A stretch of DNA of 36,961 nucleotides from Candidatus Gastranaerophilales bacterium (GTDB taxonomy: Bacteria > Cyanobacteriota > Vampirovibrionia > Gastranaerophilales > Gastranaerophilaceae): the NCBI GenBank assembly GCA_944323365.1, contig CALUSG010000012.1, positions 1 through 36,961 of the forward strand, given 5' to 3'. Positions 7,493 to 27,466 of the stretch are shown in pieces. Below the pieces are notes generated by a model. The model was given only the letters and a program-made list of their open reading frames with translations. It was not told where the DNA came from and made no database searches. Positions within the stretch are counted from its first letter, which is position 1, and the number at the start of each line of letters is the position of its first letter. The position numbers and the translations under genes were made by a program.

Positions 7493-8242
7493 CTAAAACC
7501 ACGGATAATCATCTTTTATCTGCCAGCCGTCAAGGTATATGAGTTGTCCGCAATACTGCGAACCAGTATCCGTTTTACAGCTATTTAAGGTACTTAATCT
7601 TGATCCTCCATAATTATGGAATTTAAATTGTTTGTCGGAAATATTAAACCGCATATAAAATATATCTTTACCTAGTGTATTTGGTTTACTAAAACCATTT
7701 ATATCAACTAAAAATGAGATATTCCTATACTCCCGGCTTCTACATGTTCCATCGTCATTCCGGTCTGCACAAACAGATTCTAAGCCATTTCTTATTAATA
7801 CATTATTTGACAATAAAATTATATATCCAATAACACCCGAATTATCGCTTAAAGCCCCGCTTGCAGGTAAATAAAAGCCCTCGTAATTTATTCTAGATAA
7901 TAATGTATATCCATAATCTTTTGTAACTTTTATATATGGTATTAAATATTTTGTAGCAAATTTTGTTATTACATCTTCTACATTGAAATTAGGATCATCT
8001 GTCGGTGTTCCATATATCCCGGCTACTTCCCATGTTGTAGGATCACCTTCTTTTACCTGGGCCATCGTCAATGCCTGCGACAATATTGAATACGTCTGCT
8101 TCAACTTTGTTACGGTCTGACGCTTATTATAATTACTTATCAGCGTCGGAATAGTTAATGCTGCTACTACTCCTATTATTCCTAACGTTATTAATACTTC
8201 CGCTAACGTAAATGCTCTTTTTCTCTTACTATAATTCTTCAT
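7493..8242 (-). CDS. type IV pilin-like (prepilin N-terminal motif) protein, copy 1
   Basis: 249 residues from the ATG at 8242. A short basic leader MKNYSKRKRA precedes FTLAEVLITLGIIGVVAALT, the class III prepilin signal and hydrophobic helix with the conserved Glu at +5. The residue before the cleavage point is Ala rather than the usual Gly. The C-terminal half is Cys-containing and includes DINGFSKPNTLGKD, a motif shared with the second pilin-like protein of this window. The product is probably processed by a prepilin peptidase and exported as a minor pilin or pseudopilin. An in-frame TTG at 8293 extends the frame, but the promoter at 8249-8277 places the transcript start at or next to the ATG at 8242. 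If the upstream G9 tract had 10 residues, the ORF at 8412 would fuse in frame. The 3' end lies 6 nt from the convergent glcD. Confidence 0.85.
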   Translation of the reverse strand: MKNYSKRKRAFTLAEVLITLGIIGVVAALTIPTLISNYNKRQTVTKLKQTYSILSQALTMAQVKEGDPTTWEVAGIYGTPTDDPNFNVEDVITKFATKYLIPYIKVTKDYGYTLLSRINYEGFYLPASGALSDNSGVIGYIILLSNNVLIRNGLESVCADRNDDGTCRSREYRNISFLVDINGFSKPNTLGKDIFYMRFNISDKQFKFHNYGGSRLSTLNSCKTDTGSQYCGQLIYLDGWQIKDDYPWF

Positions 8243-8248
8243 ACTAGA

Positions 8249-8277
8249 ATTATAGTTTATCTTATGTTTGCAGTCAA
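8249..8277 (-). promoter_or_regulatory. consensus promoter giving a probably leaderless pilin transcript
   Basis: On the minus strand TTGACT (8277-8272), a 17-nt spacer and TATAAT (8254-8249), followed after exactly 6 nt by the prepilin ATG at 8242. Transcription should start at or within a base of the start codon, leaving no room for a Shine-Dalgarno site. The second pilin-like gene has the same spacing and hexamers at 26679-26707. Confidence 0.7.
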
Positions 8278-8340
8278 CTCCCCCAAAAAACAAATCAATT
8301 ACATTACTTAATCTCAGTGCACCTCTGAAAACCCTGTCTA

Positions 8341-8412
8341 TTAAGCCTTGAAGGGTCGCCCCCCCCCGTTACTCACCGTTAAAACGCCTGCTATATCTAC
8401 TTTTCCAACCAT
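8341..8412 (-). CDS. short SD-led ORF with G9 tract upstream of pilin copy 1
   Basis: A 23-codon ORF, MVGKVDIAGVLTVSNGGG then RPFKA and a stop at 8343-8341. It has a full AGGAGG 8 nt before its ATG and its own consensus promoter 14 nt further upstream, so it is very likely translated. Codons 16-18 are a run of nine G. With ten (or seven) G the frame avoids the stop and continues for 57 codons into the prepilin at 8242; with nine, as here, it ends early. It is therefore either a leader peptide or the out-of-frame 5' part of a phase-variable pilin gene. No homologue is recognised. Confidence 0.6.
   Translation of the reverse strand: MVGKVDIAGVLTVSNGGGRPFKA
8359..8367. repeat. homopolymer tract C9 (G9 on the coding strand)
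   Basis: Nine consecutive C on the plus strand inside the short ORF at 8341-8412, flanked by GTCG and G. The only comparable run in the window is the C10 at 26607-26616, with the same flanks, also upstream of a pilin-like gene. Such tracts slip during replication. Confidence 0.95.
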
Positions 8413-8431
8413 ACTACTGCCCTCCTATTTG

Positions 8432-8460
8432 ATTATAATAAAACTTTTTGCATAAGTCAA
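8432..8460 (-). promoter_or_regulatory. consensus promoter of the G9-tract ORF
   Basis: Minus strand TTGACT (8460-8455), 17-nt spacer, TATAAT (8437-8432), then 5 nt and AGGAGG before the ATG at 8412. The -35 box overlaps the last codons of yidD, so this promoter would add transcription after the flagellar-type operon. Confidence 0.65.
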
Positions 8461-26548: not shown

Positions 26549-26606
26549 TAAAATATGGAGGTTATTTTTATGGAAAAGGTTATCAAAAAAGCGGTTCAGC
26601 AAGTCG

Positions 26607-26616
26607 CCCCCCCCCC
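26607..26616. repeat. homopolymer tract C10
   Basis: Ten consecutive C flanked by GTCG and G, in the 5' frame leading to the second pilin-like gene. It is the counterpart of the C9 at 8359-8367, but there the C-rich strand is the non-coding strand. Confidence 0.95.
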
Positions 26617-26678
26617 GATTTTAAGTCGTGGTTTTAGGAATTTTAATTTTAACAGGTTATTTCATAATTTTTTATTTC

Positions 26679-26707
26679 TTGACTCTTTAATTTATCCAAA
26701 CTATAAT
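26679..26707 (+). promoter_or_regulatory. consensus promoter giving a probably leaderless pilin transcript
   Basis: TTGACT (26679-26684), 17-nt spacer, TATAAT (26702-26707), then 6 nt to the prepilin ATG at 26714. The hexamers, spacing and the AAAC before the -10 box are identical to the pilin copy 1 promoter at 8249-8277. Confidence 0.7.
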
Positions 26708-26713
26708 GCCAAT

Positions 26714-27466
26714 ATGAGGAAATATAGTTTTAATTTTATCAGGCTTAAACCTGCTTTTACTTTAGCGGAAGTTTTGATTACTCTTGGTATCGTTGGCGTA
26801 ATCGCAGCTTTAACTATACCGACTTTAGTCGCTAATTATCAAAAAAAACTTTTAATTAATCAAAACAAACAAGCTTATTCTTTAATTATTAATGCACTTA
26901 ATAAAATAAAATCCGATTCACCATCATTCTCCTATGTTTCTTCAGAAATATTTGCACCGTCAACATCACAGGATCAAGCACTAACACTTTTTTCTAAATA
27001 TTTCAAAACTACAAAATTAAGAGTAGGAACTTATAGAATTAAAAAAATGAGACCGGGTGAAAGCCATGACGATGCTAATAAATATGATGATGGAGAAGAG
27101 ATGCCATCAACTAATCTGCAAACAGCAAACGGAATGATTATTGGGCTTTTGAAATTCACATATGCAGGCTGTATCAGAATAGGAGAAGTATATATTTACA
27201 ATCCTGACGGAACAATTGCAAGGGATGAGAATGGAAACCCCTTGACCGAGCCATCCGAAAGAGAAACATGTGCGGATATATTTATTGACGTTAATGGTAA
27301 AAAAGACCCTAACCAATATGGTAAAGATGTTTTTCGTTTTTCTGTCTTAAGAGAAAAATATGAACTTTCCTCAACAGCCAGTATGGGTAACATAGATTAC
27401 ATTATTAAGCATAATGATTTTGATCCGAACATAATTGACTATGAACTTGGCGGAGATAAGCAATAA
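26714..27466 (+). CDS. type IV pilin-like (prepilin N-terminal motif) protein, copy 2
   Basis: 250 residues from the ATG at 26714 (MRKYSFNFIRLKPA, then FTLAEVLITLGIVGVIAALT). The prepilin helix has Glu at +5 and Ala at -1, as in copy 1. The C-terminal half contains DVNGKKDPNQYGKD, the same motif as copy 1, and two Cys. It is expected to be cleaved by a prepilin peptidase and assembled in or exported across the membrane. I prefer the 26714 start because of the leaderless-type promoter. The frame is also open from an SD-led ATG at 26570, giving 298 residues with a 48-residue extension that depends on the C10 tract. It is convergent with rplA and shares a terminator with it. Confidence 0.85.
   Translation: MRKYSFNFIRLKPAFTLAEVLITLGIVGVIAALTIPTLVANYQKKLLINQNKQAYSLIINALNKIKSDSPSFSYVSSEIFAPSTSQDQALTLFSKYFKTTKLRVGTYRIKKMRPGESHDDANKYDDGEEMPSTNLQTANGMIIGLLKFTYAGCIRIGEVYIYNPDGTIARDENGNPLTEPSERETCADIFIDVNGKKDPNQYGKDVFRFSVLREKYELSSTASMGNIDYIIKHNDFDPNIIDYELGGDKQ

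Follow-up and report, generated by a model that had tools for sequence, protein, structure and literature searches.

Does the run of nine G that precedes a prepilin gene in a Candidatus Gastranaerophilales bacterium decide whether translation begun upstream of it is carried into the pilin? The locus lies in a 36,961-nt stretch of DNA (positions 1 to 36,961 of contig CALUSG010000012.1, assembly GCA_944323365.1), the whole of which is referred to here as the window. An original prediction, made from the sequence, described a promoter- and AGGAGG-led ORF that starts at 8412, runs through nine G and stops at 8341. All of these coordinates were confirmed on the minus strand, where the locus is organized as follows:

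8455-8460, minus strand: −35 box TTGACT of the upstream promoter P1, with a 17-nt spacer to the −10 box (sequence match only)
8432-8437, minus strand: −10 box TATAAT of P1 (sequence match only)
8421-8426, minus strand: Shine-Dalgarno (SD) sequence AGGAGG of the upstream start, from the sequence
8341-8412, minus strand: 23-codon ORF from ATG 8412 to TAA 8343-8341, MVGKVDIAGVLTVSNGGGRPFKA*, the OFF product as assembled
8359-8367, minus strand: G9 tract of exactly nine G, the OFF length; a tenth G would bring the upstream frame into the prepilin
8243-8358, minus strand: translated leader region, stop-free solely in the prepilin frame
8272-8277, minus strand: −35 box TTGACT of an internal promoter, P2, within the leader frame; TTGAC is kept in divergent paralogs
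8249-8254, minus strand: −10 box TATAAT of P2, 17 nt past the −35 box and 6 nt before ATG 8242, a predicted leaderless start
7493-8242, minus strand: focal prepilin gene, 249 aa from ATG 8242, MKNYSKRKRA/FTLAEV..., with an N_methyl domain

The predicted frame arithmetic was also correct: ATG 8412 is 170 nt from the prepilin ATG at 8242, the prepilin frame read back from there is stop-free as far as the tract, and one additional G would join the upstream ORF to the prepilin. As judged from the assembled frame, the focal copy is OFF, in agreement with the unfused state that had been proposed. Strong expression of the 8412 ORF is a prediction from the consensus matches of its promoter and SD. The 117-nt leader spacing is kept in at least 14 paralogs of the focal copy.

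The tract belongs to a class of runs that is greatly overrepresented in the source genome (G000, a 1.70 Mb draft in 87 contigs). Twenty-nine distinct G/C runs of at least 9 nt were found, compared with about 0.7 expected from a first-order base-composition model of the window scaled to the whole genome; G/C runs in the window other than the focal G9 and a C10 described below reach 5 nt at most. All but one of the 29 runs lie upstream of prepilin-type genes: for 26 of them an FTLAE-type prepilin follows within 800 nt, and two further runs (contigs C17 and C42) precede FTLAEM-type prepilin-like genes. Twenty-three runs occupy a common layout of SD, ATG, tract, open frame, and prepilin, and a strong SD is present in each of the 23. 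At three loci included in the 26 (L088, L092, and L059 on contigs C28, C44, and C68), the tract belongs to a small ORF of its own, for which a leaderless start is predicted; the pilin lies approximately 240 nt downstream and has a separate SD. These tracts may work differently from the linked ones. The sole run that is not upstream of a prepilin-type gene (L093, C46:32460-32469) is a G10 that opens a radical SAM gene in frame, possibly a phase-variable enzyme.

The relationship between tract length and reading frame was assessed in 92 linked loci from three genomes: G000 (23 loci) and two further species of its genus with good assemblies, G010 (32) and G002 (37). These loci are related paralogs and the counts are not independent. 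All 92 prepilins share the SD-ATG-tract-open leader-FTLAEV layout, with the tract located 18-48 nt past the SD-led ATG. In the source genome, the 18 linked tracts of length 9 are all out of frame and the five of length 10 are all fused. The same rule extends to the three species together, where length 9 is OFF in 63/63 loci and length 10 is ON in 16/17, supporting the earlier proposal of phase variation through tract length; a single ON class modulo 3 (7, 10, or 13) is common to 85/92 loci. It had been suggested that stops appearing freely in relatives would refute the proposal, so leaders of at least 60 nt, from loci picked without regard to the prepilin frame, were checked for openness. Between tract and signal, the prepilin frame is stop-free in 81/83 and each of the other frames in 1/83. 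Leaders behind G tracts take 49 length values from 22 to 600 nt, and 44 of these are congruent to 2 modulo 3 (nominal p about 1e-15, a guide only because the paralogs are related), which indicates that past length changes were multiples of three. Taken together, the frame rule, the openness, and the length class indicate that selection has maintained a common register of upstream ATG, tract, and prepilin, set at a length of 10. Nineteen loci of G010 and G002 lack an in-frame ATG, GTG, or TTG between the tract and FTLAE, so the tract decides there between pilin (10) and no pilin (9).

The leader itself appears to be under little constraint at the residue level. Its pN/pS of 0.75 in the prepilin frame is close to the 0.79 obtained in one wrong frame and compares with 0.47 over the 60 N-terminal residues of the mature protein; the case for coding therefore rests on stops and length classes rather than on dN/dS, and a conserved leader domain was rejected. 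The proposed 57-residue extension thus stands as an in-frame leader and is improbable as a functional domain, with the emphasis shifting to the tract-controlled start. The 57 residues are probably a weakly constrained translated leader of a prepilin with a strong start upstream of the tract.

The window contains a second tract-prepilin unit on the plus strand:

26557-26562, plus strand: SD sequence GGAGGT, from the sequence
26570-27466, plus strand: second prepilin ORF, 298 aa, fused in frame via C10, MEKVIKKAVQQVAPPPILS...FTLAEV
26607-26616, plus strand: C10 tract on the coding strand, ON as assembled
26679-26707, plus strand: internal promoter P2 in this unit, TTGACT-17-TATAAT, with 6 nt separating it from an in-frame ATG at 26714

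The C10 tract sits 37 nt into the SD-led ORF. Read from the assembled frame, this copy is ON, and the 9/10 rule holds with the complementary base C on the coding strand. The original prediction had linked the focal tract neither to the C10 at 26607-26616 nor to the P2 promoter.

The tract-prepilin layout is established in its anatomy, frame rule, openness, spread, and enrichment, and it is best explained by phase variation at the level of translation, with the G9 as one of roughly two dozen switches in the genome, for which 10 is ON and 9 is OFF (probability approximately 0.83). According to this proposal, each switched prepilin gene would be transcribed from a promoter upstream of the SD-led ATG, with P1 as the presumed main source of pilin, and translation from that ATG would cross the G (or C) run about 18-48 nt into the ORF. 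With a 10-base run, the ribosome would continue through a leader of 10 to about 200 codons into FTLAEV; with a 9-base run, it would enter the wrong frame and stop within about 15-25 codons, so that no pilin would come from the upstream start. Prepilin peptidase would presumably remove the long leader together with the signal. Tracts would change between 9 and 10 by slipped-strand mispairing during replication, giving a population with many pilin combinations, most of them OFF. The pilus surface would vary as a result, and single cells would probably shuffle the fibers that they display.

Comparisons of paralogs, made within one genome per species, bear on the slippage step. A near-identical pair in the source genome differs by one G, with C85 at G10 (ON) and C56 at G9 (OFF), and the two copies share 92% identity over 60 nt upstream and 99% over 110 nt downstream. 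Tract length differs in five paralog pairs, of which the other four are more diverged than C85/C56. In C62, the leader of the C-tract family has a run broken by T in a fused frame, and from its sequence this copy is a locked-ON form. At L066 (C54:406), the run is cut to six G and is out of frame, and the signal reads FKLAEV instead of FTLAEV; this copy is perhaps locked OFF and starting to decay. MutS1 is intact in the source genome, so general hypermutability lends slippage no support, and mutator status was disfavored as a cause. ON loci account for 18/92, less than one-third (p = 0.005, not corrected for relatedness), a share that is not predicted by simple random slippage. The OFF bias could result from selection, from a mutational equilibrium at 9, or from a consensus over mixed populations.

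The strongest alternative arises from the internal promoter. The P2 motif (TTGAC-N18-TATAA(T/C)-N6-ATG) was found inside the leader at 34 loci in three species, and the ATG is in the pilin frame in all 34. At these loci TATAAT lies 6 nt before the ATG and the SD score is 0, which makes them candidates for leaderless starts and fits predicted leaderless genes, whose −10 signal lies about 12 bp ahead of the start codon (PMC3160421). Both TTGAC and AACTATAAT persist in leaders that have otherwise diverged. The possibility that NYNS is a protein motif was rejected in favor of a promoter because its codons are invariably AAC TAT AAT, even though Asn is mostly encoded by AAT here (220 AAT versus 54 of the rare AAC). 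The same 6-nt spacing between −10 box and ATG occurs at a few non-pilin genes. One of these, encoding MNYIFYFLI... in two species (L069, 2237, minus strand; L219, 2334, minus strand), has a promoter 6 nt before its ATG and hints, from its sequence, at wider use of leaderless messages in the group.

P2 with an in-frame ATG is present in 18 of the 23 linked source-genome copies, the focal one included, and could yield pilin from them whatever the tract length, which counts against the switch. In the focal copy, P2 predicts a leaderless transcript from ATG 8242 that may supply a short form regardless of the tract; the tract may consequently set the level of pilin or its leader rather than act in an all-or-none manner, and an alternation of long and short pilins is possible. 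In its full form, this alternative describes a dual-start gene, in which P2 constitutively provides a leaderless pilin from ATG 8242 and the tract adds a longer, leader-bearing form. We consider it possible but on balance doubtful. Leaderless translation in this group is a prediction, and P2 with an in-frame ATG is missing from 5/23 loci in G000, 20/32 in G010, and 33/37 in G002, where 9 OFF/10 ON still holds. A tentative synthesis, more speculative than the switch itself, would combine the two starts: dozens of pilins would make up the pilus repertoire, every one controlled by an OFF-biased 9/10 switch, and in a subset the SD-led phase-variable start would be stacked with a leaderless promoter embedded in the leader-coding sequence. 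Tract length would then set the dominant pilins while the rest are made at a basal level, and the leaders would serve as landing sites for in-frame short repeats.

Programmed recoding offers another route to a fused product. Here, RNA polymerase or the ribosome would slip by one on G9, giving a constant, low share of fused prepilin while the tract in the genome would stay at 9. Slippage at runs of G is plausible. The narrow length distribution, in which exactly 9 dominates (63/92) and all but one of these loci need the same one-base shift, would also be expected of a fixed, programmed element. Recoding is nevertheless unlikely, as it leaves unexplained the 16 loci where a length of 10 is already in frame, the near-identical paralogs with 9 and 10, and the coding-strand C tracts that follow the same 9/10 rule. 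An assembly or sequencing artefact, in which homopolymers are miscounted during metagenome assembly, might be suspected in an 87-contig draft where several contigs end in or near tracts, but it is largely excluded because the layout with 9 OFF/10 ON is seen independently in genomes of different assemblies and miscounts would not confine runs to prepilin leaders. An incidental low-complexity run in a decaying leader upstream of an independent pilin gene would suit the weakly constrained leader residues but is excluded by the counts (29 runs against 0.7, 28/29 at prepilins, 81/83 open in the right frame, and 44/49 lengths in one modulo-3 class).

The products of both window copies carry the prepilin N-terminal motif, with TIGR02532 above its cut-off in each, and PF07963 (Pfam) exceeds its cut-off in the first (focal) copy at 26.9 bits. 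NCBIfam equivalog matches to named pilin and pseudopilin families (GspG, PilA, ComGC, etc.) were all far below cut-off, and the Pfam and NCBIfam profiles gave no match to the PilC or Opa families. The AlphaFold model of the focal prepilin (pLDDT 84) has a helix at residues 13-65 followed by a β domain, a predicted architecture of long N-terminal helix and β head that resembles type IV prepilins. A structure search returned the pilin FimA as the best PDB match, a weak one (E 0.06). A short repeat, GGTGCTACGCACGTAG..., read as GATHVDM/GATHVGM..., is found directly before AFTLAEV in several leaders (L252, 12811, minus strand; L254, 7319, minus strand; L246, 17876, plus strand; L248, 1088, minus strand; L255; L133; and L067). 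In four leaders a second FTLAE precedes the GGTGCTACGCACGTAG repeat, as if the repeat had been inserted with target duplication. Within the stretches examined, the repeat core occurs six times upstream of pilins and never elsewhere.

The named relatives of the prepilin come from Gastranaerophilales MAGs. Such tracts are carried by 16/16 genomes of the genus, and the same layout recurs at loci sampled from further genera and families of the order, where states are mostly OFF. The usual tract length varies by species: G005 often has 11, G014 has G9 that needs 8 or 11, and G003 has many longer runs. A single species-wide ON length was rejected because G014 and G005 use other lengths (ON would require 8 or 11 in G014 and 12 at several G005 loci), and the set point of tract length may evolve between species. 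At L306 (699, minus strand) in G001, lengthening a G10 by one opens a 359-residue frame without a pilin motif, a candidate phase-variable gene.

Gastranaerophilales are non-photosynthetic relatives of cyanobacteria that are common in animal guts and almost without functional data. The results point to large-scale stochastic variation of surface fibers in this order. The ON or OFF state of every pilin is readable from sequence, so existing host metagenome reads can be used to ask whether pilin expression follows host, time, phage, or diet. Gene callers will pick wrong starts for tract-led pilin genes, or split them, in most genomes. Our literature search, which covered few subscription journals, found no report of phase-variable pilins in Gastranaerophilales or of phase variation at such a scale for pilin genes.

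Frame switching by poly-G tracts is known from other bacteria. In the Neisseria pilE/pilS system, the displayed pilin is varied by recombination between silent and expressed copies; the displayed pilin also varies in the system proposed here, but every copy is equipped with a separate start and switch. The opa genes of Neisseria gonorrhoeae, about 11 in number, carry CTCTT repeats in the leader-peptide coding sequence and present a close likeness, being a scattered multigene family of surface proteins with a leader-coding repeat in each copy, frame switching, and a combinatorial repertoire (PMC3745409). In contrast to opa, the repeat here is a G/C homopolymer, the switched proteins are type IV-type prepilins and not outer-membrane adhesins, the leader extends to about 200 codons, and some leaders contain internal promoters. 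Neisseria pilC1/pilC2 and other poly-G/C genes have in-frame homopolymeric G/C tracts of at least 9 that act on type IV pili (PMC5953494), but pilC encodes a two-copy pilus-associated protein, whereas here dozens of pilins would themselves be switched. Campylobacter jejuni, a low-GC gut bacterium of 1.6-1.7 Mb with about 29 poly-G/C loci and working lengths of 8-11 (PMC4965091, PMC6097035), has a phasome similar in genome size, habitat, and locus number; its loci encode mostly surface-modifying enzymes, whereas nearly all of those described here precede prepilins. By analogy, the principle would be that of gonococcal opa and the repeat type that of Neisseria pilC and the Campylobacter poly-G genes, and the system differs from these in its dozens of prepilins, long translated leader, second internal promoter, and host lineage.
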